Part shown: positions 10,589-42,226 of the stretch, piece after piece
Position numbering within the stretch: position 1 is the stretch's first letter
Layout of the letters: every line of letters begins with the position of its first letter
Assembly (NCBI RefSeq): GCF_014066305.1
Contig: NW_023501046.1
Location: 290,001 to 354,000 of the forward strand
Source of the DNA: Letharia columbiana
Taxonomy: Eukaryota; Ascomycota; Lecanoromycetes; Lecanorales; Parmeliaceae
DNA: 64,000 bases
Reading direction: 5' to 3'
The notes under the pieces: model-generated
The model's input: the letters and a program-made list of their open reading frames with translations, nothing else
Told to the model about the DNA's origin: nothing
Databases searched by the model: none
Made by a program: the position numbers and the translations under genes

Positions 10589-13500
10589 ATGGCGCCGCCG
10601 CCAGCGGCGAGAAACAACCCGCAGAGTCAACCACTCACAACTTTGTTGAGGTTGATCTGCGAGTCGTACCCTCCGAACACTTGTCTCCGAGAACTACTTC
10701 AAAATGCCGACGATGCCGGAGCTACCGAGATTGAGTATATCCTTGATACGAATACCTACGTTGGGGAACCTTTATTGCATGAAGCGCTAGCAGAATACCA
10801 GGGACCGGCTTTACTGGCGAGAAACAACAGCGTCTTTACTGACGAAGATCTCGCAAGTCTAAGTGCAGTTGGCGACTCTAGGAAGCGCCACGATGCGGAG
10901 TCTACTGGCAAATTTGGACAGGGGTTCAACTCGGTAGGCCATCCTAACTCTGCTTTCGCGCCTTCCATAAGTCAGGAATTGGGCTGATCGTGTTCTCCGC
11001 AGGTTTACCACTTCACGGATGGCCCATGGGTCTACTCACGTAGCTTGCTGCTCATGCTTGACCCCCACAAGACATGGTCAAGGAGCTTCAGTCCTGATGA
11101 TCCCGGAGGACCCATGTGGGATGTGGTCAAAGGTCGCGATTGCGCCGAGATTCAAAACCATCTCAATACTTTGGGGGCATTTGACCTTGATTACACGCGC
11201 TCAAATGACGAGACAATCATCCGGATTCCGTTGCGTACCCAAGAACAGGCGAGAACCAGCAGAATCTTCCAACAGAAGATTAGCATCCAGAACATTGAAG
11301 ACGCTCTCAGAGATTTTGGCCAAGAGATCCAAGAGGGCGGCTTGTTGTTTCTCAAGCATGTCCGCAAGATCATCATCAGATTGAACCACGATGTTGTGCT
11401 GTTGGCCCAGATCCTTGATGACGATCACAACAGCTCAAGCATGAGGATGGCGATACCTACAGACTTCAAAACACGATACGCGCCAAACACGTCCCAGGCC
11501 ACTCACGATCTGTCGAAGACTTTTGAGATGAGGATTGAAATATCCACAAAGCAATATCCGAATCCAAGACTCTTTCGATATGTTGTCCAACATACGATGA
11601 TGACATCTTCTGGCGACAAGAAGTTGGACATCTGGGCTCGTGAGCGCAAGCTGTATCCCTGGGTGGCCATAGCAGCACCGCTGAATGATAATTCTGCTGG
11701 TGACCCTTTCTATGGGCGGCTTTTCTCTACCCTGAGATTACCTGTCAGGACAAATCAGCCTATTCACATACATGGCCTGTTCTCAATTACCCCAGATCGT
11801 GGTAGGCTGTCATCTTCTGGACAGTCGCCTGGCTATGAGGATCTGGCAACGAAATGGAACAGTTTCATGTTCGGGAAATGCGTTTCGATCGCTTGGGCAA
11901 GCCTTCTTGCTCACCGTAGCCCTCTCTCATGGCGCGAAGAGATGTTTGCTCTATGGCCCAGACCCGAATTCACTCACTCCGAGCTGTGGGACAATCTAGA
12001 TGACAGTGTCATTGATATAGTGATAAAGTCCAACCTGGTCGTGTGGAACGCCTCGAATGGTTGTTGTGTGGATGTCGACCATGGCTTCTTCGCCCCTAAA
12101 GATGCAGAAGCCAAAGGATACGGCCGAGCCCTTGCAGCGGCTCTCCTGCCAGCGGTGTATCTCGAAGGCTCTTTGCTAAAGAAACTCCAACAGCGGATGA
12201 AGCTTCTACAGCGAAATGTCAGAATGTTGACGCCTGTGACAGTCCGCCAATTCTTTCGTCAGCACGGACTTCCAGCATTATCATCGGAGATACAGACCAT
12301 TATTCTTGAATTCTGTCTTCTTGATGCGATCACGAGCCCGCTGGAACATAATGAGAGAGAAAACTTGTACAACGATCTCCATGGGATCCAGATCTGGCCG
12401 ACTGTTAATGGCAGTTTGTCGTGTTCTAACAATGTTGACCTGATGCTTCCACGGGATGACCCAGAAATGCAACTATTTTCTAAGTCGAGAGCTACAGCAA
12501 CGTTGGACATTTCCATGATGAGTCCTGTTGTCAGGAAGTTGCTACTGAATGACATCAACAACCTCACTGTGGTGATGAGGTTTCGCGGCCTAGGGGACTT
12601 GGCCACAGACTGGCCAGTGATGTACCTCATGATGCCTCGCCCCGAAAACTCCAGAGGCTGGGCAAAACGAGCTTTCGGTATCGACAATGTTCTTCATGAC
12701 ATATGGGCCTGGATTGCCGAACGAGTCCAAGAAGGGCAGCGGATGGTCCTCGAGCTTTCGCGCGACCTGTGGCTTGTTCCAATGAACGACTTCCGAATCC
12801 GACAGTTCGCTCCCAAAGCTCTCAAGATTCCGTTGCTTATAATCGAGAAGCAGGACCCCTTGTTCAATCTCCTGGTCGCCATCACGAAACAGGATTCATT
12901 AGAAATGCCACCGTTGCTAGATACCGACATCTTGCCAAAGGAAGCAAGAGATCTTCTGCGCAACAAAGAGCCCATGAAGACGGATACCCGGTGTACCCGC
13001 GTAGATGACCCAGAAGCCTTCGTCGACTGGCTGGTTGCCTGCAAAGAGATGCTAGCAAAGGCTTCGGACGAGGAGAAGGCCATGCTTCTGAGCCATCTCG
13101 AGACCCTGACACGTAATTTCAATTTCCCAGCAGGTCTTTCACCCACGCTTATGAGCCAAATGCGGAAGTTACCTCTTTACAGCAAGATCTGTTCCTCTTC
13201 GCCCTTCGAGTAAGTTTCGAATTTGCACCCCTCGAGGTCCATCTAGCGGGCCAAATTAGACTGACACAACAGCAGAAAGCGTAGCCATACGAAGCACGGT
13301 CTCGATGCAGGCGGCCATATGTATTGGACCCCCAAGTCCCCTCCGGATTTTCCGCCGCTGCCGGACATTGTCAGAGTGTCATTCTACGATCCACAAAACG
13401 AAATTGAAAGGCTGATGATGGGACGGCTCAGAGCGCTCCAGGACGTAGCACTCAAAGATTTGTTAACCCTTCATCTCCTGCCTTGGATGGAATCTATCTC

Positions 13501-16500
13501 ATCAGATGCAGAGCCGCTATGGAAGATCCCTAAAGCAAACCTGGTTGACTGGATCATGAAAGGCTCGCGGCGACCAAACAAAGCGTGGGTAAAAGACATC
13601 ATCAGCCATCCCATCATACCACTTCCTCCTAAGGATGGAAAGACAGAGTATCGCTGCCTGACGGGAATGGTGGATCCAAGCTCTGAACTAGCAAAGCTCT
13701 ACGATGGGGAGGAGAACGTCTTCCCCTGTCCAGACTTCTTCTCACGCCACAAAGAAGCTCTAATAGCCTGCGGCATCGCTACACAGCCTACCTGGTCCAC
13801 ACCAGCAGAGCGTGTAAGATACTTTTCACAGTGTGGAGTGAACATTGAAACACTTCAGCATAAGGTCGATTGCCTGCTGAAGCTACCAATTGAGAAAATG
13901 TTGAGTAGCTCGGCAGTTGAAGTTGCAGACATCAGGAAACTGGAGTGGCTTCCTGGGGTATCTCTCAATGGTGAATCTACGCTGCTTGCTCCCAATGAGT
14001 GCCGTGGAGCGGATCAAAGTTATTTGGTTGACTTGGTCTGGGGAACAACGCACATAACTGTCAAAGCAAGTTGGAAGAAAGTTTTGGGTAAGCGCGCTGA
14101 TTTCATGGCATTCTTGTGGTTACTTACTTTACCAGGTTGGGATCAAAGCATCCCAGCAACAATGCTTCTGCGACAATTGGACCTCTGCCTGGCAATGGAA
14201 GACTATGACAAAGCTAATAAAGTTCTCCGCCAGATAGAGCCGGGTGAATACTCGGTTTTGGCAATGAAGCCATGCTTTCTCGGTCGCTCAGGAGAGTACT
14301 TTACATCAGATAAGGTGTTCTTACCAGGAAGTCAGTTGCGATCGCGGTCCCTGGCCCCTTATCTCGATGAACTGGATGCCAAATTTGCGAAAGATCATGA
14401 CAGATTAGTAATTGGACTGGATATTCGGTCACAACCGTCGGCACAGGATCTTCAAAGCGTTCAAAATTCTCTCAATAAGACCACTGAGGGTCATTTAAGC
14501 AACTCTGATCTCGGTATAGCGATTGCCACTCTGGAGATCGCCACGCGTCTAGGATACGATCCTCAGGATCTTCGGATACCAGATGCGACCATGATTCTAA
14601 GGGAACTCAAAGACATTGTACATGGAGATCCATTGAGTACTGGCGATATCGCTGATTTCAACTTCACGCATCCTGAAGTTTCTAACGATCTGGCGCGCCG
14701 GCTTGATGTTGAGAATTCTTTAAAGAGAGCAATTAGGCTCAAGATCGATTTTGACAGCGAAGACGAGAACGACTATACTCCAAAAGAGAAGCTCAGCACA
14801 GTGATTTCCGATACACTAGAGCGATATCCAGTTGAATCGACGTTCAATGAGTTCCTGGCAAACGCCGACGATGCTGGAGCAACCAAGATTACCTGGATAC
14901 TGGATGAGTGCCGCGAAAAGCCCTATGGATCTTCGTCTCTTTTGACCAGCGAGCTGAAGCCTTTCCAAGGAGCAGCGCTATTAGTAAGCAACGATGCTGT
15001 CTTCTCCAAGAAGGACTTTGCTGGGTTCAAAGACATTGGACAAGGTGGCAAAAAAGACGACATCCATTCAACGGGAATGTTCGGGCGAGGAGCACTAAGC
15101 ATGTATCACTTCACGGACGTGCCGATGCTGCTTTCCAGTGACTCCTTTCTGGTCCTTGACCCGCAGCAAAAGGTCCTTCCTATAAACTACAACAGACGCC
15201 GCGAACGCAAGGTGGGAACAAAGATCTCTCTTTCGGCTGTGAACCGTCTAGCGCCGGATCAGTTGGCCCCATTCTCGGGCTTGTACAACTTCGCTCCGAA
15301 CTTGAATCACTACGAGGGTACGATTTTCCGCTTTCCTCTCCGTGCAGTCGGGGCAAAGACCCTCTTGAAAGACCATGTCCAGCATGTAGACGCTGTCGCA
15401 GTACGATCGCTTCTCAGAGATTACTTGGCTGTTGCCCGTACGGCGTTGCTGTTTCTCCGCAATGTTGAGTCGGTCGAATTCCGCACTCGGGACCAGAAGG
15501 ATCCACAGTGGTCTGTCATCGCCCGTCGTTCACCATGCCAAGACAGTGATACCTGCCAAGACGTTGAAATTACAAGCATCCAAGGAGGCAGACTCCAGCA
15601 GGTAGACAATTGGTGTGTCGGCCGCAGAAACATAACTCAGATTCCGGCAGATATCACGAGAGTTGGAAGAGGTTCCGAGAAATCCGCGGAATGTGGCATT
15701 GCAGCTTGTCTGAAGAGTGTGAGGACTGTTATTCCTAATGTTGGAGAAGGTGTTATCATGAGCGGGCAGTCTTCGGATGTCGAGTCTGGCACGATCCAAA
15801 CTGTCGACCATAAAGTCTTCTGTAGACTCCCTACAGGTCAGGCATCGTCGCTTCCTGTATCGTTCCATGCCAGCTTCGCGGTTACTGGAGATCGCAGAAG
15901 TATCGCCTTAGAAGATACTGCGGAGAATTCTGCGTGGAACAAATGGCTCCTGACGACAGCTGTGACCAGTCTCTACGTGGAAACTCTACAATACTTGGCA
16001 CCAAGAATGTGTGAGAAAGTTTTTGATTTATGGCCATCAATGACGACCTACCATTCATCGCCTTCCCTCTCGGAAACTTTGTGCAGAGCTTTCTGGAACA
16101 GCCTGTTGAGTCGGGGCCGGAAGCTTGACTCTCTATTTCCAATCAATGCACAAGACTATACATCAGACCATCAAGATGGCCTGCTTGTGGGCAATGAGGT
16201 GTCAAAAAAGGCAGTCTCTCTGGCAGAAGCAAGATTTGATTTCCTTCCTGATGACGTCTCCCAAGCTCTTCGACCGCTCCTTGTCAAATTATGTCCGACT
16301 CTCGTTCGCCTCCCCCGAAAATTGTGGCCCGACTATAAGCGAGCAGCTGCTGAAGCGGCTTGGTTATCGAAGGAGTTGCACGCAGATTACCTTTGTCAGG
16401 TTTTCAGGAATGATGACAACTGCAAAATACTAGAGGAATTTATTCGCGGGCTTGGCCACGAGGAGAGAAAACGCGCAGCGATGGCAATGCTACTCAAGAC

Positions 16501-19242
16501 GATGGTACCCCAGACTGACGGGACTGACACGACTCCAATGAGTATTCTCGGCGGATGCAGAGTGCTGCCTCGGCCAAACCTTGACGCACCATTAGGGCTC
16601 CTCCTCTGGAACGCTCCGCCAGGCTCAAATTGTAATTACGTTGCGACAACCGAAGAGCAAGACCTCTTTGGATTCGCTTCGGACTCCATGATTAACAGAG
16701 AGTTGTCCCAGGATGCGAGTGACTTGGTCGGCATGTTATTGAAAGCCTCTTTCAATGTCCGGAAACTGGACTTCTCTGACTTGGGAGACCTTTTAGCACG
16801 ACCACAATCGCCCACAAATCCATCGATCGCTTTCGATGACCGCGATGCGTGGATGCTTAAGCTTTGGCTATATGTCAACACCAAAATGCGTGTGTTACAC
16901 GCCGCCAGATGGTCTTTGGCCTCATCCTTTGAGGTATCCTCGGACACAATGCTGGCTAAGGGTGGCCTTCAGGACCGTAAGATCTACCGATTCGGGTCCA
17001 ACAAACAATGGTGCTACCTAACGCCGCGCGAGTTCGAGGCTCAGCCTTGCGTCATTGAACCGCTAGACGACCAGCAACGCAGACTCTGTGAGCAGATTCC
17101 AGGTCTCCAAATTATCGACCGAAAGTGCGTACCTTTTCTCCTTTTAGAGACAGAAGGTGATCTCAAGCGCACTGCCTCTTTCGTACGTCTACTACAAGCT
17201 TTTGAGAAATTGGAAAGAACGACTAAAACGCCAACAAAGATGTTCGTGGGGAAGAGCCTAAACTTTGATTCGAAAGAAATCCTACAAGCCTTATTGCTCT
17301 ACCACGTGAACATAGGGGGTCCTTCCAATGTTACACTTCTCCGCAGCCTTCCCGTCTGGCGTCGGCTGAGGTCGTCAGACTCAGGGGTGTCGGTTCAGCA
17401 TATTGCTGCTGAAGACGCCAACTTCTGTGGCCATACAGAGTTGCTGTTGCCATGGGTGAACAATCTTGCAAGCTTTGTCAGCCCAAAGCTGGTGAATTCG
17501 AACAGACAGGCGCTCTCGAAACTGCACATTGTGTCGTTGACAGCCCAACAAACATGGGATCTGATCAAGGCAGATCTCCCTACAAATGTCAAGGTCAAAG
17601 CTTCTAGAGAACGGTATCTTGAGATGATACAACACCTCGCGGCCCATGGTGTGAGACCCTCTGGGAAAGTGGCGCCCGACGGGGCTTCCGTCCTATGCGA
17701 AGTTTACAGCCTCTATGATCACCAGGATGGAATCTTCAAGGCAGCTTTTCGAGACCAAGAAAACATTCGGTTCCTACATGTAGACTTCCGCGCCGCCTCG
17801 CTCAACACTTTCTGGCTATCCGGTGGCTTACGAGCACGGCCACCTACCGGCGCAATGATCCCAGAGCACTTCCTGGAATGTGCCCTAGCCATCAATCGAC
17901 GGTGGGACCCCGCTAATACGACTCAGATGTTTGAAGAGGATGCTCGTACAGTGTCAGAGTATCTGCAGTTCGATCGACAGGAATTCCGCAGTTGGTCCAA
18001 CTGGGCTCAGATTTCGAGAACTCAGATGTTCCGTGTGCGGGATGTCTCCCCAAACGAGAGCAGCTATCGGCGGACTCGCATGCAACGTGAGAAAACTCAT
18101 TGTGCTCTGGAAGAGGCAGGCGACCTTGGCCATGTCCGCATTGCCTGGAGTCAAACCAACTTCTTGCAAAATCCCCCTTGCTCGTACGTTTATCAAAGAC
18201 TTCCACGAGGCGGAATCCCACCTGCCGCGAAAGTATACGAGCATCTCCTCATCTTGATGGCCATCATCGAGGAAGTCACACAGTATGACCTTTCGGAATA
18301 CCTTCGTGATGTCCAGGCGTGTTATGAGCATCTTCAAAACGAACTCGAGGTTACGAAGCTTATACCTGGTATTCACCTGGCCCGTGTTTGGCTCAATCTG
18401 GACGCTACACAGGTCGAGCTTGTACCCAAAGACAGCCTGCAGTGTCCAACATCCGCAAAGTTGCTTTGCTTGAATTGTCCCGGTAAGCAAAACACTTCCG
18501 CATGCACGAATTATTGAACTGACCCATGTGCGAAGTCGATCCACTACCCGTGAAAACGGCCAAGAAATTTCTCGTTCCATATGAAAAGCTTTTGATGGGC
18601 TTGGGCTGTAAAACAGTAAAACAACCAACCCCAGCGGCCCCTGGACCATCAGCGGATACTAGAGAGCTTTCTTTGGCCGCAGCAATGGCTGAAATGCGTA
18701 GCCTACGGGATCAACGCCAGCTGACTGACGTTGTCCTTGAAGCCGAAGGTATCCAATATCCGGCCCACAAGATTATCCTAGCAGCAGTTTCCAAATACTG
18801 CAAAGTGCAGTTCGCCGGCGAATGGGGCCGCCTTTTGCAGCACCAAGCGATCGTCCACCTCGAAGAGCTTCGGGCCACCACGTTGTCTCAAATGATCGAT
18901 TTTGCGTATACCGGAGAATTCGAATGGCCACAACTGCAGGACCCTGAAAACAACACCGAGATTGCAGACAGGTTGGATGAGCTACTGGACCTACTTGACG
19001 GTACGAACATGTGGATGCTCGACCGCCTTCACAGCATGGCCCAAGACTTCTTGATCTCGCGAAGCTGGTCAGCCACCTATATCAGGGTCGACAACGTGAA
19101 TGGAATCAAGGAGCGCGCCCAGGGTGCCAGGGCGGATCGTTTGCTCAAGCATTGCGAGGACTTCGGATTAGCCAACTCGGATTTCGTGGAGGCTTTGAAG
19201 AACGATGGCTCGGAGAGTGGCGGTGGCATGGAATTGGATTGA
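10589..19242 (+). CDS. Giant sacsin-like protein: two HATPase domains plus BTB
   Basis: Exons 10589-10933, 11003-13209, 13276-14087, 14136-18482 and 18536-19242 join in frame to about 2,805 residues. Residues ~20-260 are a sacsin-type (Hsp90-like, Bergerat-fold) ATPase: N-box RELLQNADDAGATEI and, across intron 1, the G-box GKFGQGFNS/VYHFTDGPW. A second copy starts near residue 1,340 (NEFLANADDAGATKITWILD, later STGMFGRGALSMYHFTD). Residues ~2,620-2,730 form a BTB/POZ domain (LTDVVLEAEGIQYPAHKIIL...FAYTGEF). Such repeats are known from human sacsin, a chaperone-like protein, and BTB domains often recruit Cullin-3 ubiquitin ligases; a chaperone or ubiquitin-linked role is inference. Intron 3 (14088-14135, 48 nt) is a multiple of three without a stop, so an unspliced frame also reads through. 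Intron 2 ends in a NAGNAG acceptor (13272/13275). Confidence 0.85.
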
Positions 19243-28948: not shown

Positions 28949-31900
28949 CTAGGAGGAAGATGAACCTTCACCCTCGCCTTCGTCCTTGCCATATTTGGAG
29001 ACAAGCTTCTCCATACAATCCAACGCATCCTCTCTGTATCCGCCGGAGAACAGCGCGTAGTGGTTTAGCCATTGATACCTGAAATCAAAATTAGGTTGAG
29101 GTTCTTGTCGACGAACAGGAGTTCTGACTGAGCATTCCTTACAATCCATATAACGCTAGACGATCATCATACTCGTTTTTTGGTACCGTCTTCGGGATCA
29201 GCCGATGATATTCGTTGAAGAATCCAGCAGAGAAGCCTCCGAACATTCTCATTATTCCTAGTTCGTATTCTGAGTGCGCAAAGCAGGAGCCGGCATCGAA
29301 TATGACTTCTTCCATGCCGCCTTTGCCTCCGACTCTTCCTCGGGTCTTGTTACCAGACCACAGATCTCCGTGGACAAGCGCAGGTTGAACTCCCTGCCTC
29401 CCTCCCAAATGTCCATCTCCCAGGAGCCGCGGGACGACCTCCTTGACGACCCGATCAAGCAGGGAGGTCAGATCTGGGTCGCTTCCATGGTTTTTCTCAA
29501 CAAGGCTACAGACAGCGCGGAGACGGTTTTCGGCAAAAAATTTGGGCCAAGAACGACTCCACGCATTATTTTGAAGTGTGCGACCGACGCAGGTCATGAC
29601 CGGAAAGCCAAAAACCGGTCGGGAAAATCCTGCCGGAATCAGCGTAGGGGAGCTATGCAATTTTGCAAGCTTTTGAGCAAGAGATAGACCACGGCTTTGA
29701 CTACCATCAACGACAGCCTCCATGTCGATGAACTCGGTGAGGAGGAAGTAGCCGGGAGAATCCGAAAGCTTTCCATGGGCTACGCTTTTAGGACAAAGGG
29801 AAGGGACGGCTGAGTGAATGGCAGTCAACGATTCGTGCTCTCCTATTCGAGGTGTCAGTGAGCTAGCAAAAACATGTACTCCGAACAAAGGTGGTACGAC
29901 CTTTGAACATCTCGCCATCAGGTCCTGTCTTCATGAAATGGACGCTAATCTTTCCTTCCTTGACAGTAGTAACCTTCGATGGAGTAGAATATCCTGCCTG
30001 GCCATACGCTTCAATCACAGCTGTTTCTGGATCTGCAGAGAGGATGGCAATGATCGCTGAATCCACATGCGAATCAGGAAGGGATGTTTGGGGAATATTG
30101 TTCGTGTCAGGAAGTACTTCGTGACCATAGACCTCTGTTTCCCGATCTCTCAGGACCTTGGCTATCTGGTGATGGAAATTTTCCTCTGCTAGCGAATGTG
30201 GCTTTCGGTCATCGTCGTCTTCAACACGTGGATCAGCTCCTTCATCGAGCAGCAGCTGCACTACCGACTTTGAGCCATTACTGGCGGCTTGATGAAGCGC
30301 TGTCTGGCCAGTACGGTCTCTCAAATTGATGTCAGCATCTTCTTCCAACAGTAGCTTCGTGACTGCAGGATGTCCTCGCCAGGCAGCCTGATGCAAAGGC
30401 GTTTCTCCTTCGTCATCAGTCTCATTTGGGTCCGCGCCGCCTTTGAGCAGAAGTCCAACCGCTGTCGCGTGACCGTTCCATGTAGCTTGATAGAGTGCTG
30501 TCCAACCATTATCTGCTCTGGAGTGCACATTTGCGCCGTTCTTGAGCAGATATCTTACCGTCTTCTCATGGCCATTCCATGATGCCAGCTGCACAGCTGT
30601 CCAGCCGTCGTTATCCCTGTCCTCTGAATCGGCGCCTCGTTCTATGAGGAGCTTGACAATTGACGCATGGCCCTTCAACGCTGCATGGTGCATGGGAGTA
30701 CAGCCTTCCATATCTTTAGTTTTGGCATTTGCGTCTCTTGCGAGTAGGAGTCGCACAACCTCCATATCCCCATTGATCGCTGCTCGCATCAAAGTGGTCC
30801 ATTTTGTACCATCCTTCGCCTCAATATCCGCGTCGCCATCTAAAATCACGCGTGCAACCCATGTGTCTCCGTTGAAAGCTGCTCGATGCAACGGGGTCCA
30901 TTTAATTTTGTCTTTGGGCCTGCAGTTGGCACTTTTGTTCAACAGCTGCTGTATAATGGACGCATGTCCATTGTTAGCTGCCCAGTAAAGTGCGGTCACA
31001 CCTTCGTTTGTTTTGGCTGCTGTTTGGGCTCCGCGAGCCAACAGAAATTGCACTGCTTGGATGTGCCCATTCATGGCAGCCCATAGGAGCGGCTGGTTAC
31101 CGAGGGAGTCACGGGAGTGTATATCAGACGCGCGACCTGACTCCATCAGCTTCGATAGCAACCATGAAAGCCCCGCATACGCTGCGAGATGCATTGCTGT
31201 GAACGAGTCTGGTACCTTTTCGCTTTCAGCGTGAGTCTTGACCCAGTATGCGCCGAACCATCCTTGGAATTCCTTTGATCTCGCTTGAAAGAATTCTTCC
31301 TGCACGTCAAAATGTTCGCAGATATCATCCGAAGAATCTCGCGCGTGATCTGTCCAGAAAAGCATGGGATACTCAAGGAATGAGATGTCATCTCTTGGGT
31401 CTTTCCCCACCTCGCTGTTTTTGCGAAGTGATGATATGGATGGCGATGAATCACGAGGCTTTGGACCAGAGCGTACTTGGCCACATACGTATTGGAAGCA
31501 ATGAATGGCCATGTTCCGGTGCTCAGCACGGAGGTCGTGAGAGACAATACTGTCTATGCCATTCTCGAGAAGATGGGTTTTGGCGGACAAGTGGACGAAA
31601 TGGGCCTGTCTTAGATAGGTCTTCGCCGACAGATGAACGAAGTGAGCTTGTCGTTCCCGAATAGTAACCATGATCCACACTGGTCGACGTATTCTGCGAG
31701 CACGTGGAGGTTGTGATGATATTGCTTTGGCAAGCCCGCAGCAACAGCCAACTCGGGTAGCATAAGAGGTCTCAGAGCCACGATCATAGACTGGAGAATC
31801 GATTTGATATAAACAGTCGACTTCTCGTCTCCAGAGGTCAAGACTTGATCCATGATTCGAGTATACAAAGGCGTTATTCCAGAAGGTAGATGAGAAAGTG

Positions 31901-34133
31901 TCTCCTCCGTGTTGATCGACAATACCGAGGGTTTTGATAATTCACGACAGGCCAGCGCAACCCACAAGAAAGTTCCCTCGGCTTTCTGACGAAGGCAATC
32001 TCCCACGACTGCTCTAAGCGCCTCATCGTAATTTTTCACCCTGGTCAACTGGTTCACTTTGACGTCAATGAATTTCAAAACAGCCTCATCAACATGACTA
32101 GAGTTTTCCTCTAGACTAACGTCTAGTGACCCTGTCAATAGCTGCTTAATCATCAATTCGTTTCGACTCGTCAAGAGCCATTTGATGTTACATCTCGGAT
32201 CCTTCTGGAAACTCTGAGCGAGCTCATCATCCTCGATTGTGATGTAAGGCTCAAGAAGCACCAAGAACGTCTCCATTGTTTCTTTGTTGCATTCATCAAG
32301 GGCATCAATCACGATAAAGATCTCTCGGAGGCCGGAGTACTCGATGATGGTCTGGAATATCCGCCACAATGTGTGTAGGGAGTTCGGAGAGGAGAACAAT
32401 TGTTCGCGTTGTTTCTCGTACTCGTTATGCAAGTAGACGGCGAGATCTGGACGCTGACAGAGAGTTTGATATATCAAGCCACGAAGGATGAGGGACGCTG
32501 TCCTACCCCTGTCGTCTTGATTGTCGCAGAAAAAGTAGAGCAAGGCGGTATCATTCGCAGATTGGTCCAATCGGAGCTTTCTAGAGAATTCCTCAATTAA
32601 CGCAATGGCTAACATCGTTTTGCCTTTCCCAGGATCTCCATGTAGCCATAGCACAAGTGATCGATCGTCCACCAGCCATTTGATATAGGTAGCATCTTTC
32701 ATGATCCAGGAGTCTATGGTGTCTAATAGCTTGTCTTTCTTGTTTGCAATCATGCGCATGTCATTGGCAGGATCCGTGGCAAACAAAGCCTGGACGCTCG
32801 TAGAATTTCGTTCTTCGATTTCATTCCGAGGTTGGTTCGTCGTTTGCGAAGCCGATCTGACATAAGGAGAGTCGAAATCGCTGGAGCTTGGCATGATGGG
32901 CGGAAAATATAGTATCAGCATTGGTCCTCTCGAATCGAAACTGAGATATAGTACTTACCCGGGCGTCGACTACTAATCCGCTCAGGCGCGCTATCAACAA
33001 ATCTCACAACCTCTTCACACACCAGACGATAATTACCATCATCCGGGTTGGTGAATTTGTTCAGCCGAAAGTGGTCACTCGCTAGGCCGAGTTTAGGATA
33101 GCCATCAAGGCAGCCGGAGTGCTCATCAACCACTGCATCCTACAAGAAGTATATCAATTTTGGTTGTGGCGACGCACTAGGACGTGTTGCCGTACCTTGA
33201 CACTCGGCATCAAGTTCTTGGAGCCTTTGAATCTTATGACCTTTGCAACATCTGACTTGTGCTGCTCGAAAAAACAAAACAGAGGAATCGATATGGTATT
33301 GACGGTACGTGTAAAATCATGCAAGAGATCCGCCAGCATCTCAGAGTCTTTTTCAACAGCCTTCAGTAGGCTGCTTTGCTCTCCCAGGGAAACAGCTGAG
33401 GCGATGTTCGCGATCACTGATGCCTTGGAGTGGGAGTTTGATCCGCGGTGTGGCGTTCCCAGAAAAACAATACCCGCTACAGATCTTATGATGCATGGAT
33501 AGTCTTCTTCGTGGAGTTTTGCGGATACCAAAGCCTGTAGGGATTAGTATCTCATCGATAACTAGCGGATTGAGCGGTATGGTCTGCATGACAGACCTTT
33601 TCGATGACTATACCACCAAAACAATGCCCAATGAATACGATTGGTCGCAACGGACACTCCTAAGAGAATTCTCAATCCCAGTCTGGGGAAATAGGACATT
33701 GCGCCACACCTTTCGTGAGGCCATCAGGTTCCGCAGTAGTTGGTCCGCGACCAACGGCAGCCTCTGCTGTATTGCCTCTTTGCCCAGCCATTGAGATTCA
33801 TAGCCAAACCGCAATATCCTTGAATTTGGGATGGCTTGTGGGAGCATATGTTCATCTCTCAGCCAATTGACATCGCCAGCAGTCCATGTGTAGTCAGGAT
33901 GGGCTCCCAGGCCGTGGATAGCCACCACGCTAATGAGATCATGACTCAGTATACTGATACAATATTAGAAGCAACGATCTGGATTTGCGTACTCCACAAG
34001 AGGTCCAGGCTGACCGCCGTCACATGGGGCACTATACAGAAGCTCGAGTCCAAGTCTGATCGCAGGCTCAGGAGCCTATCGATCCCATTAGAGCTTTGAC
34101 CAGCCAGAAGCACACGTGGGCGAGACCTACCAT
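28949..34133 (-). CDS. NLR-like protein: alpha/beta-hydrolase - NACHT - ankyrin - ketosamine-3-kinase fusion
   Basis: The model has exons 34131-34133 (the ATG alone), 33993-34075, 33710-33929, 33597-33659, 33196-33534, 32959-33139, 31681-32812, 29901-31609, 29143-29842 and 28949-29078, ~1,519 residues. Residues 1-296 are a SesB-like lipase domain (DVVAIHGLGAHPDYTW; GHCFGG with cysteine at the nucleophile elbow; FLGTPHRGS). The NACHT has Walker A GDPGKGKT (~residue 355) and Walker B IFIVIDALDECN. Ten to eleven 33-residue ankyrin repeats cover ~810-1165. With no stop and no suitable ATG, the same frame runs into a full ketosamine kinase: N-lobe SAIIAILSADPETAV..., catalytic LVHGDLWSGN, metal-binding IFDAGSCFAH. 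NLRs are fungal non-self sensors; ketosamine kinases phosphorylate glycated amines. Two joints are uncertain: the 32813-32958 intron was chosen only because it keeps frame, and 31610-31680 covers a duplicated, frameshifted segment. The start is also uncertain. Confidence 0.72.
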
Positions 34134-35340: not shown

Positions 35341-36597
35341 ATGGACGAGGTGTCGGACAACCGGCATACTGTGATCATTGGTAAAGCCTTAGGCATCACC
35401 CACCAGCGTTTGTCTCACTGACTGTGGTAAGGGGGTGGCATTATAGGTTGCTGTATCGCCTATTATATCACCCGTCACCCATCGTATGACCCGGAATTTC
35501 ACACTGTAACTCTGTTGGAAGCCAGTCAGCTTGCTGGCGGCTCTTCAGGCAAGGCGGGAGGTCTTGTTGCCACATGGGCAGATCCACAATGTATCGCACC
35601 GCTCAGTCATCAGCTTCACACCCAACTGTCCGAGGAGCATAACGGCCAAAGACGTTGGGGTTATCGGAGCGTTCATTGTGCTGACGTGGACGCCATGGGA
35701 GAGGCTGTTGGGCATGTCACAACAGAGCAGAATGGATCTCAGTTCCACCCTCACGCTATGTCTGCGCCTAAGGCTGCCGATCTTCCGCCGGAACTGAATT
35801 GGATCATACCTGAAAGCATAACGTCGTACAGTGAGCTGGGAACTCCGGAAGACACAGGACAGGTGCACCCATACCTGTTCACAACCAGCATAGCCTCTTT
35901 AGCGGAACAGAGAGGCGTCAAGATCATTCTTGGCACGGTGAAGACGATCAATTACTCGCGGGATGGTAGAAAGGCTGAGTCGGTGACCTATAATTTGAAA
36001 GATACTTCGGGAATGCACACACTCCTAGCTACGGATATCGTGATTGCTACCGGCCCATGGACCAAATTTTTGTATCCAGCCGCTCCCATCAAAGAGTCGA
36101 GGAACCACAGCATCGTCGTTCGTCCGGCAAATCCTACATCGGCATATGTGCTCTTTCCCGAGCTGCATCCGAAGGTTCCCCAGAAACGCATACCTCCAGA
36201 GATATACTCTCGACCAGATGGAACGATCTATTCATGTGGGCCTAGTGATGACGACGTTCCATTGCCCGAGACCAGCGACTTGGTACATGTTAACCAAGAA
36301 GTCTGTGATATCATTTACAAAGATATCAGCAGCATATCACACGAGATACGGGACGGGGAGGTCTTGATCAACCAGGCTTGTTACCGACCCATTGTCCAGG
36401 GCAGAAATCGTGACATTGGGCCTCTTGTAGGACCAACAGGTATACGATCTTTGTGGCTGGCTGCGGGCCATGATTCGTGGGGCATTCAAAACGGTCCAGC
36501 AACAGGGAAGATCATGAGTGAGATGCTACTTGAAGGAGAGGTGCGAAGTGCGGAGGTGGCAAGTTTAGATCCAAGGAAAATGCTCAATGTACCTTAG
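35341..36597 (+). CDS. FAD-dependent oxidoreductase (DAO/glycine-oxidase-like)
   Basis: This is an amine or amino-acid oxidase of the D-amino-acid oxidase superfamily, 401 residues. Exon 1 is 35341-35380 and exon 2 35432-36597. Choosing the AAG acceptor at 35431 rebuilds the dinucleotide-binding loop VIIGGGIIGCCIAYY; the later TAG acceptor would delete it. The second conserved stretch LLEASQLAGGSSGKAGGLVA holds the FAD-contacting glycines. The C-terminal RNRDIGPLVGPTGIRSLWLAAGHDSWGIQNGPATGK is the typical FAD/substrate closing segment. It resembles uncharacterised fungal FAD-dependent oxidoreductases rather than a named enzyme, and the substrate cannot be told. No targeting signal is clear. 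Confidence 0.88.
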
Positions 36598-39656: not shown

Positions 39657-41765
39657 TCAGGACAAATGCGTCGTGCTGAACAGACGGTTACCGGTGTCGG
39701 TGGTGCCACTGCCAGTGAATTTGGTGTCAGAAAGGCGAAGCGCAATAAGATGAAGTTTTGCGTAACGTGCGAGTGTCTGGTTGAGACTGCCCCCAGAAAG
39801 GCACTGGGCCTGAACGACACCGGCGACTACCACGATGCGAATAGTGGCATGAAGCTTGCGAACGTGCTGCACGAATTTAACAATTGTCTTGCCGGTATTG
39901 ACTACCGAATCTACCAGTATCACTGTGAGCTGTCCTTGCAAATGATGGAGCTTGATATCGTCAGCATCGCTGGCATGGAGGAACATGGCAAGCGGGAAGG
40001 CATCGTTGACGCCAGAAGCCATGGGTTCTCCGCCGCGCATTAGCGCCACGATCGTTGTCTGTTGCTCGTGAAAAAGCTGGTAGCCTCTTGTTTGATTGCC
40101 CAGGACATGCCGAATTGGACACTGTTCGAGACCCATCACATCGGCCACGAACTCATTCGCCAGATACCAGCCGACGCGGCGATGCGCTTCCCTCAGGTCC
40201 GGGCCGGCAACAGCTGCATCGCGCATCCGCGTTGCGAGCAGCTTCGCTGCGTTCCTATCTGTGGCACAAAAAACTTGAAGACCATCATGTGTATATCGGT
40301 CGCACAGGAGAGACTTGACGAATGCGGGCTCGGTGAGCTTGATCACGGGAAGCTTGGTAGTATCTAGCCGTGGTGAGGCATTGCTTGGCAGTACAGCCTG
40401 GTGCGCCCGAAGGCCGTCATAGTCGATGGCGTTTGTCAAGGCCGCATCCATGGTCTTGCTCCTGGTCTGTTCCTCACCAACTACGACGATGGCTCGATCT
40501 GCCTTGCGCAACATGTCCAAGTCCAGCGGACTATCTCCGAACGCCCAAACACGCATGTGGTGGACCTCTCGCAAACGGGCAACCAAGGCGCCCTTTACTG
40601 CCGCTGAAACGACGAACCCATCTGCAATGCGTCCTCCACCAATAACTTTTACCTTCTCCGATAGACGTTCTCTCTCCAGCACCTTATCCCAGACACGACG
40701 CAGTCCACAGGTGACCACCACCGCGCCAACATGCTTTTGCTCTGCCACCAGTTGCAACAGTGACACAATCTCAGGATGCATGGTCACCGCCAACGCCACT
40801 TCTTGGCAAAGGGTATCAAACTCTTCATCACTAGCGGTCTCTTCATATATCAATACGGCCTGGCGAAAAGCAGTATATGAGTGACCTAAAGGGCTGCTGA
40901 ATAACGTATTCAATGTGGATGCTGCACCTTGCAATGGCCGCGAGTCTGAGACCCTCTTCCAGAACAATGCGCCTGCGTCCTCTGCAGCCAACGTCCTGTC
41001 GGCGTCCATGACCAACACTGTCTCCAGCTGGCGTTGATTAGCAACAACAACATCGTCTAGCTTGATTTTGGCCTGAGATAGGTTGTATTCCTCGTTATGG
41101 TACTTGAACTCGCGTAGCAGTCTCGAGACTTTGTTCAGCAGCGTCGGAGATGGCGATACGGGCGAAAACAAAATGCCATGACGGCGGCAGAGATCGCGCA
41201 GCTGAGTCTTTTCTTCCTGCTGCCACTTGTGCAAATGGCTTGCCGATGTGGACGGGCGACTCCTTTCGGTGTCGTCCAGACGACGTCGCTCGACAACCTC
41301 GGCGAGGACGTCTAAATAGACGATGTGCGTAAATATCTCCAAGTCATTTAGGGTATACACTGGCCGTCCAGCCTCCTGCTCCTCTGACCAGAACATGAAA
41401 TGTCCAGCGACGACTGCAACTTGTCCGCTGTCAGCGCAGTTCTTTCCAATCGCGTCAATAGCATGCCGGCGCCAGTGCGCCTTCTCTTGTTCTTCCATGC
41501 TCTGAAATGCGTCAAGACCGCCAGGCACAACGGTAGAAATCATCTCGGAGCCTTCGTAGAACGAGAACTGCGTCTGTCCGAGCTCCTGCTTCAGTTTGTT
41601 CAGCAGAAACGTTTTGCCAGAGCCTGGAATTCCGTATAAGCCGACAACTACTGCTTTGTGATCGAAAGCAGACCGATTTTTAGGGGTAGTGGGTTGGTTT
41701 AGCTGAAGATCCGCCATTGAGCCCGATACGTTGCTTGAAGCGTTCTCGCAGTTGGCAGACATCAT
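39657..41765 (-). CDS. Three-domain fusion: P-loop kinase, HAD phosphatase, uracil phosphoribosyltransferase-like
   Basis: A single exon of 702 residues begins at the ATG pair at 41765 (MMSANCENASS). The first domain is a small P-loop kinase with Walker A GIPGSGKT near residue 45 and the DNLEIFTHIVYLD-type strand. The middle is a HAD-fold phosphatase: motif I VLVMDADRTL (DxDxT) near residue 240 and motif IV FGDSPLDLDML. The last ~200 residues match uracil phosphoribosyltransferases: YTHDGLQVFCATDRNAAKLL, ALMRGGEPMASGV and the PRPP-binding VILVDSVVNTGKT. Similar fusions exist in other ascomycetes, to my knowledge without a described role. Joint salvage and dephosphorylation of pyrimidine or a related nucleotide is inference. 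The C-terminal phosphoribosyltransferase motif lacks the usual second acidic residue (DS in place of DD/DP), so activity is not certain. Confidence 0.88.
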   Translation of the reverse strand: MMSANCENASSNVSGSMADLQLNQPTTPKNRSAFDHKAVVVGLYGIPGSGKTFLLNKLKQELGQTQFSFYEGSEMISTVVPGGLDAFQSMEEQEKAHWRRHAIDAIGKNCADSGQVAVVAGHFMFWSEEQEAGRPVYTLNDLEIFTHIVYLDVLAEVVERRRLDDTERSRPSTSASHLHKWQQEEKTQLRDLCRRHGILFSPVSPSPTLLNKVSRLLREFKYHNEEYNLSQAKIKLDDVVVANQRQLETVLVMDADRTLAAEDAGALFWKRVSDSRPLQGAASTLNTLFSSPLGHSYTAFRQAVLIYEETASDEEFDTLCQEVALAVTMHPEIVSLLQLVAEQKHVGAVVVTCGLRRVWDKVLERERLSEKVKVIGGGRIADGFVVSAAVKGALVARLREVHHMRVWAFGDSPLDLDMLRKADRAIVVVGEEQTRSKTMDAALTNAIDYDGLRAHQAVLPSNASPRLDTTKLPVIKLTEPAFVKSLLCDRYTHDGLQVFCATDRNAAKLLATRMRDAAVAGPDLREAHRRVGWYLANEFVADVMGLEQCPIRHVLGNQTRGYQLFHEQQTTIVALMRGGEPMASGVNDAFPLAMFLHASDADDIKLHHLQGQLTVILVDSVVNTGKTIVKFVQHVRKLHATIRIVVVAGVVQAQCLSGGSLNQTLARYAKLHLIALRLSDTKFTGSGTTDTGNRLFSTTHLS

Positions 41766-42226
41766 ACTAAATCCTTGGGTCTTCTCCGAAGGGTGGGTAG
41801 GAAACCCAATTCGATAATCGATGAGATATGTCGCTATTAGATGTAGCTGATGTAGGGTGAGATGGAGGTAAATTGGAAGGTTGGCCGCATTGGCTAGATC
41901 GATCGATCGATCTCTGGGCTGCCTTATTCTTTCTGGGCAATCAAGTGACTCAAAGAGCCGAAGCAATCATGATATCAATCAATCAATTCAGCGTGTTGCA
42001 GAACCCTGCTACAGCAGCCCACTTTTCTGCACGCATGTACCCAGCCTCTCTGGTAAAGGGCGGTAGAGAATTGAGGTGTGGAAGCGGCAAACGGCAGAGC
42101 ATGGAGCAATGACTGAACAAGTATTACAAGAGACCGAGAGATTTGCGTCAAGCCATAGGCTGTGCATTTGGTATTCTCCTGATTGCCTTTCCACGACTGA
42201 GTCTGACGATCGCCGGAAGCACATCT
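41766..42226. other. Intergenic, nothing recognised
   Basis: Upstream region of the three-domain fusion gene and downstream of the small conserved gene. A run of GATC-rich tetramers (CGATCGATCGATCGATC) lies near 41897-41913. Confidence 0.4.

Follow-up and report, generated by a model that had tools for sequence, protein, structure and literature searches.

Receptors of the NOD-like type (NLRs) that carry integrated domains are already known, and the closest published case to the gene described here is a C-terminal PKinase domain (CHK2/PRD-4-like) in nine Sordariales T-NACHT NLRs, which the main text of that work proposes as an integrated decoy (PLoS Genet 2025, PMC12258605). In this study, we analysed a window of 64,000 nucleotides of Letharia columbiana (contig NW_023501046.1, positions 290,001 to 354,000; the genome comprises 52.2 Mb in 161 contigs) with regard to one minus-strand gene, 34133-28949 in window coordinates, whose domain order is DUF676 hydrolase, NACHT, about ten ankyrin repeats and ketosamine-3-kinase (K3K, PF03881). 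Comparison of predicted proteins places this gene in an old NLR family of the order DUF676-NACHT-ankyrin-K3K, spread over seven fungal classes, and what would be new is the K3K as an integrated NLR domain. An earlier note on this stretch was aware of no fungal NLR of this architecture, and our literature searches, with subscription papers and preprints outside their scope, likewise returned no description. In the main texts, the word "fructosamine" occurs in neither PMC12258605 nor PMC10197012, nor "fructosamin" in PMC9815663.

Among the 85 matching proteins of 476-1515 aa considered from a search with the fused kinase, 41 combined ankyrin repeats with PF03881, and 24 of these also carried NACHT or NPHP3_N. 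A query restricted to the NACHT part (predicted protein P0003, residues 215-745) gave 755 matches, and the best 120 of these comprised 38 with a full C-terminal kinase, 47 with the start of a kinase and 35 with none; a kinase or its start was therefore found at the C-terminus of 85 of the best 120, the 47 starts being kinases cut by an intron, a contig end or the gene model. All four domains were colinear in 14 of 14 proteins checked, which came from six Pezizomycotina classes: Lecanoromycetes (Lambiella and others), Candelariomycetes (Candelina mexicana), Geoglossomycetes (Geoglossum simile), Leotiomycetes (Cadophora and Pseudogymnoascus), Sordariomycetes (Neopestalotiopsis, Xylaria and Diaporthe) and Dothideomycetes (Zymoseptoria brevis). 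The seventh class, Arthoniomycetes, is represented by Chrysothrix P0031, with NACHT, ankyrins and K3K in a predicted protein that begins after the hydrolase. The earlier note had proposed a search for NACHT or ankyrin with PF03881 in fungal proteomes, and an old family of this breadth was not foreseen in it.

Gene structure, junction and frame break

The features of the gene, all on the minus strand, are as follows:

32955-34133: DUF676 alpha/beta hydrolase, SesB-like, N-terminal, in six exons (splice model, DUF676 profile, alignment to Lambiella insularis P0210)
34133-34131, 34075-33993, 33929-33710, 33659-33597, 33534-33196 and 33139-32955: the hydrolase exons, the last ending at a phase-matching donor
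32887-32954: 68-nt intron, GTACTA...CCAAG, that separates the exons of hydrolase and NACHT; of several phase-matching pairs, this is the most plausible
32127-32711: NACHT / NPHP3_N nucleotide-binding domain with Walker A GDPGKGKT (Pfam)
31671-31672: single reading-frame break between the NACHT part and the ankyrin part (tblastn and motif check of relatives)
30205-31200: about ten ankyrin repeats of 33 aa each (Ank_2 and repeat register)
30082-30135: ankyrin-kinase linker EVYGHEVLPDTNNIPQTS, without ATG (open frame, similar linker in relatives)
28949-30081: ketosamine-3-kinase (PF03881), exons 30081-29901, 29842-29143 and 29078-28949 including the stop (Pfam, human FN3K match)
29843-29900: kinase intron 1, 58 nt, GTCGTA...TAG, joining in phase, donor slightly unusual
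29079-29142: kinase intron 2, 64 nt, GTAAGG...CAG, joining in phase
29349-29372: catalytic loop HGDLWSGN, corresponding to human FN3K D217, W219 and N222 (sequence and alignment)
about 29297-29295: equivalent of the Mg-binding D234, in FDAGS (sequence and alignment)

The ankyrin-kinase junction is the point on which the architecture depends. On the minus strand, frame 31941-29866 leads from the ankyrins via the linker to the N-lobe of the K3K without a stop or an ATG in between, just as the earlier note had observed, and its description of a complete kinase read through two introns likewise holds, since both introns join in phase, the stop lies at 28949, and HGDLWSGN and FDAGS are present. Taken by itself, the middle kinase exon matches PF03881 with E 1.6e-44 (152.7 bits; cut-off 22.4), and the spliced kinase matches human FN3K (9cx8) with E 2.6e-39. 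The same junction recurs in many other predicted proteins, indicating that it is more than chance. In nine relatives, a predicted protein of 1217-1266 aa reaches from NACHT across the junction into the kinase and breaks off exactly at the site of intron 2, and seven close relatives of the Letharia copy stop shortly beyond the intron-1 site; from their ends, we infer that these are unspliced genomic frames. The closest K3K elsewhere in the genome lies at C12:1095645-1096732 (54-55% identity), with three further PF03881 places more distant, so that a stand-alone relative of the extra domain, as expected of an integrated decoy, occurs in the same genome. This stand-alone K3K begins MKIDSAV while the fused domain aligns from about SHVDSAI, which places the fusion point at or adjacent to the stand-alone start methionine.

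These observations support a single NLR-type gene that ends in a K3K, and not two adjacent genes. That the domains belong to two separate neighbouring genes, or were joined by an artefact of gene prediction, is extremely improbable in our judgement. Gene models can indeed merge neighbours: the stand-alone K3K of Letharia adjoins an armadillo-repeat gene, and the database entries P0037 (Psora crenata) and P0049 (Penicillium salamii) each join an armadillo domain to a K3K. Model merging does not, however, explain an open junction without ATG or stop; a similar linker recurs in relatives, the nine long proteins ending at the intron-2 site resemble unspliced frames across the junction, and the NACHT and kinase trees are concordant. 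As for the armadillo neighbour, it has the same direction as the stand-alone K3K (L030 540-3250, G000:C12), and the P0037 and P0049 records are perhaps gene-model mergers across a conserved neighbourhood.

The upstream domains are those of a fungal NACHT NLR (STAND, signal transduction ATPases with numerous domains). At the N-terminus, where an effector-type domain is expected, the DUF676 profile matches with 20.9 bits (cut-off 20.3). The predicted start MAPEPAIRLGLELLYSAP aligns with residue 1 of P0210 (80.7% over 295 aa), which supports a gene start at 34133 and, with it, the limits 28949-34133 given in the earlier note. The nucleotide-binding part matches NPHP3_N (E 7.2e-36) and NACHT (E 1.3e-9) with the Walker A motif in frame, and the C-terminal repeat part matches Ank_2 (E 4.2e-73), the eight regular ankyrin repeats sharing a mean identity of 38% and a maximum of 52%. 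The nucleophile elbow of the hydrolase (33597-33659) reads GHCFGG in the Letharia copy; among 14 relatives inspected, eight were readable, six with GHCFGG and two, the Cadophora and Zymoseptoria relatives, with the serine-type GHSFGG. Given this elbow, the hydrolase, as putative output enzyme, may rely on a cysteine nucleophile. What had looked like a further frame break, within the hydrolase at 33.6-33.7 kb, proved to be an intron (GTGTGG...CTTAG), the spliced protein matching P0210 from residue 1.

An uninterrupted frame, a further mark of a NACHT NLR, is lacking in the Letharia copy, while the relatives are intact at 31671. The fusion described in the earlier note is real; this break was overlooked there. 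All 13 of the 13 tblastn relatives switch frame exactly at 31671 (P0073, for example, with 90.9% before and 87.5% after), and 23 of the 24 relatives in the motif check read through the break point with QCGS-MVT or close variants, P0033 not matching the pattern. On the 3' side, with the two kinase introns spliced out, 866 codons run on without a stop. As nearly all relatives read through, the break would be either recent, representing a freshly broken allele, or a one-position assembly error. A cryptic intron bridging the point is a possible alternative, for which 17 GT-AG pairs of 40-159 nt are available; judged by eye, however, the shortest of them would create a stop and a 71-nt pair would drop about 23 conserved residues, and the read-through in relatives also speaks against it. 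Directly after the break, RQAHFVHLSAKT is tandemly doubled at 31671-31590, a doubling that is common to many main-clade relatives and does not occur in Chrysothrix P0031.

Trees and origin of the fusion

The NACHT tree contained 78 rows, comprising the Letharia copy, P0047 of Alternaria dauci and 76 of the best 120 NACHT-only matches (29 of the 38 with full kinase, 23 of the 47 with cut kinase and 24 of the 35 without kinase). Its root was set on P0047 and carries little information, given how distant the NLR body of that protein is. A branch of support 100 has nearly all of the kinase-less rows (23/24) on the same side; the exception, P0249, ends soon after a repeat and may be incomplete.

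For the kinase, 90 rows were at hand, of which 84 entered a quick tree and 65 a first careful tree; a second careful tree of 61 rows took in 20 earlier fused rows, 15 new full-length fused rows and 26 rows without NLR domains, with P0047 omitted. The outcome depended on sampling across these three trees. The quick tree united the fused rows, except P0028 and P0047, at a support of 93 (SH-aLRT, Shimodaira-Hasegawa-like approximate likelihood ratio test), and in the 61-row tree 34 fused rows formed one clade with support 97/90; the 65-row tree is weighed in the next section. Trichoglossum P0028 stood outside the fused clade, with p 0.0135 against its inclusion in the approximately unbiased (AU) test. 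The NACHT and kinase trees share a lichen-rich main clade, a clade of Chrysothrix, Bacidia, Neopestalotiopsis and Pseudogymnoascus, a group of Xylaria, Cadophora and Zymoseptoria, and a group of Diaporthe with P0245. These common subclades point to one ancient fusion, inherited together with the NACHT part. Lecanoromycetes are present in both larger fused clades, which we read as at least one old duplication within the fused family. The earlier note had also suggested comparing the fused kinase with the stand-alone copy of the genome; a sister relation of the two was rejected (AU p 7e-65), supporting the view that the fused kinase does not stem from a recent duplication of the stand-alone K3K.

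Beside this family, P0047 (1458 aa) carries a C-terminal K3K on an NLR whose NACHT differs strongly, as does its N-terminus (weak PigL_N match), and its catalytic loop has HGN in place of HGD; it is apparently an independent K3K fusion onto a different NLR, with the catalytic aspartate altered. The ankyrin-K3K proteins P0062, P0063 (Flavoplaca citrina) and P0065, of 804-835 aa, show no NACHT match in precomputed domains and have both catalytic aspartates altered (D217Q/E, D234N); they have the appearance of pseudokinase relatives that became detached from the receptor.

Catalytic residues and the role of the fused kinase

Residues were scored with human FN3K as reference, in which D217N and D234N each abolish activity according to the text consulted (PMC11754801). 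The comparison set of 99 K3K rows without NLR domains was drawn from the best 120 of 1425 kinase matches and from the fused-kinase search; it holds some merged gene models, and P0122 within it falls inside the fused clade. D217, N222 and D234 were intact in 99 of 99 of these rows, one of which has H215Q. The fused set has 63 rows, and 62 could be scored for these three residues, as the kinase of P0230 is incomplete. At least one of the three residues was lost in 12 of the 62 (P0010, P0013, P0015, P0017, P0029, P0047, P0062, P0063, P0065, P0090, P0201 and P0211), and in two of 13 exon-only rows of the same kind (P0102 and P0106). Some of these altered kinases are located within long open NLRs, namely P0211 (1520 aa), P0201 (1561 aa), P0013 (1218 aa) and P0015 (1251 aa), and on the quick tree 11 altered rows among 67 require eight changes (P0230 and P0047 omitted). 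The fused rows retain the ATP-binding K41 in 63 of 63, E55 in 62 of 63 and H215 in 62 of 62. The Letharia kinase has the equivalents of K41, E55, H215, D217, W219, N222, D234 and H288, and every scored residue is present except that of the P-loop C24.

On these grounds, we lean towards the reading that, in this old DUF676-NACHT-ankyrin-K3K family, the K3K is the sensing end and the hydrolase the output. The loss of catalytic residues in some fused kinases and in none of the 99 others, with K41 kept throughout, speaks for a role as sensor or bait rather than as a further enzyme effector. The recognition surface would more likely be the K3K than the ankyrins, which are not of the near-identical, fast-evolving type. 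Following the general logic of NLRs, the K3K would form the sensing surface at the tip of the ankyrin solenoid and hold the protein closed, until a foreign K3K-targeting protein binds or modifies it, or its occupancy by glycated ligand or nucleotide shifts. Through this change of state, the ankyrin arm would free the NACHT part for nucleotide exchange and oligomerisation, and the clustered N-terminal hydrolases would then bring about cell death or a stress response; in several lineages, the receptor would apparently do without phosphorylation by the K3K. Of the three roles named in the earlier note, the second effector is weakened as a general role by the contrast of 12/62 with 0/99, while the decoy and the ligand sensor are not distinguished, the sequence being compatible with both a bait for a foreign protein and a reader of ketosamines or nucleotide. 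To our knowledge, the ligands of most fungal NLRs are unknown. A narrower proposal, which we hold to be unlikely, is an NLR for metabolic damage, whose K3K would bind ATP and ketosamines and read protein glycation; the fold would have been recruited once and kept in seven classes, with catalysis repeatedly lost and ATP binding kept. Its ligands could be, for example, ribulosamines formed from ribose or ADP-ribose as NAD or nucleotides degrade during attack.

Several findings weigh against the K3K as a sensing end in an old, singly fused family. The first careful kinase tree (65 rows), with fewer full-length relatives, did not join the fused clades, and kept apart the main fused clade, the Chrysothrix-Neopestalotiopsis clade, Xylaria P0032, P0028 and P0047. 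The reading frame of the Letharia copy is broken, and its kinase is among the 50 of 62 scorable fused kinases that keep D217, N222 and D234. The losses are confined to the main clade and P0047, and since no scorable row of the Chrysothrix-Neopestalotiopsis clade shows one, kinase activity may matter there. When the 54 columns that do not vary across 39 other K3Ks are ranked by how often they change, D234 (changed in 6 of 46) comes seventh and D217 (5 of 46) joint eighth, so that a general relaxation would explain part of the loss. Moreover, identity to P0210 is 79% for the fused K3K, close to that of the hydrolase, against 69% for the ankyrins, a conservation that seems unlike a fast-changing decoy.

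The three intact residues of these 50 kinases and the good conservation of the domain are also what one would expect of an active enzyme, with the K3K either serving as a second effector or regulating the output: it would phosphorylate a ketosamine or the receptor itself as the NLR fires, or reset the receptor. We regard this as doubtful, because at least one of the three residues is lost in 12 of 62 fused and 2 of 13 exon-only rows, with 11 altered rows spread over eight changes on the tree and several of them within long open NLRs (P0211, P0201, P0013, P0015). The same repeated changes could instead mark the K3K as a passenger, an old fusion now drifting, with the function of the NLR resting on hydrolase, NACHT and ankyrins alone; the NACHT-less P0062, P0063 and P0065, with both aspartates changed, and the broken Letharia copy would agree with this. 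Drift is, however, at odds with the retention of K41 in every fused row and of E55 in all but one, with a kinase identity that equals that of the hydrolase and exceeds that of NACHT or the ankyrins in close relatives, and with the kinase or its start still present in most of the best 120 NACHT relatives, and we consider the passenger quite improbable.

Neighbouring genes and described systems

Head-to-head with the NLR gene, an FAD oxidoreductase of the DAO family lies on the plus strand at 35431-36594. It was considered as an Amadori-product oxidase and rejected, its nearest PDB matches being dimethylglycine dehydrogenase and glycine oxidase; hence no glycation cluster is claimed. Further off, one 769-aa frame on the minus strand (39660-41966) combines AAA_17 kinase-like, HAD hydrolase and uracil phosphoribosyltransferase domains, and on the plus strand, at 10988-19239, a BTB-domain frame comes after two long frames with Sacsin (SACS) domains, 741 and 1750 aa in length.

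With reference to described proteins, the Letharia kinase has the PF03881 fold and key residues in common with human FN3K (PMC11754801) and Arabidopsis 6oid. FN3K and FN3K-related proteins are, in the sources consulted, stand-alone repair enzymes, whereas the Letharia K3K forms the C-terminus of an NLR and several of its fused relatives lack catalytic residues. The outermost domain of this receptor family has the fold of a small enzyme for which substrates are known, human and plant structures are available and assays are simple, which makes the decoy, ligand-sensor and enzyme hypotheses directly testable. Integrations in plant NLRs are often young and patchy, in contrast to the K3K integration, which has been kept over seven classes. 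What plant integrated-domain NLRs share with this gene is a domain of a cellular protein fused to the NLR alongside a stand-alone relative (as cited in PMC12258605). Fungal SesB-like-NACHT-ankyrin NLRs have the same domain order as the Letharia gene, and no K3K was seen on them in the text examined (Dyrka et al. 2014, PMC4986451; PMC12258605); unlike theirs, the Letharia ankyrins are without strong internal identity (mean 38%). The Sordariales PKinase NLRs are alike in their N-terminal, nucleotide-binding and repeat architecture with a C-terminal kinase-fold domain, in the single integration inferred for them and in the relation of their kinase to a conserved stand-alone gene, as far as the main text of PMC12258605 describes them. 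They differ in that the domain is a protein kinase and not a fructosamine/ketosamine kinase, and the nine cases come from two families of Sordariales, against seven classes for the K3K family (PMC12258605). The K3K integration, kept together with NACHT over these classes, therefore appears far older than the Chaetomiaceae/Podosporaceae integration as presented there (PMC12258605).

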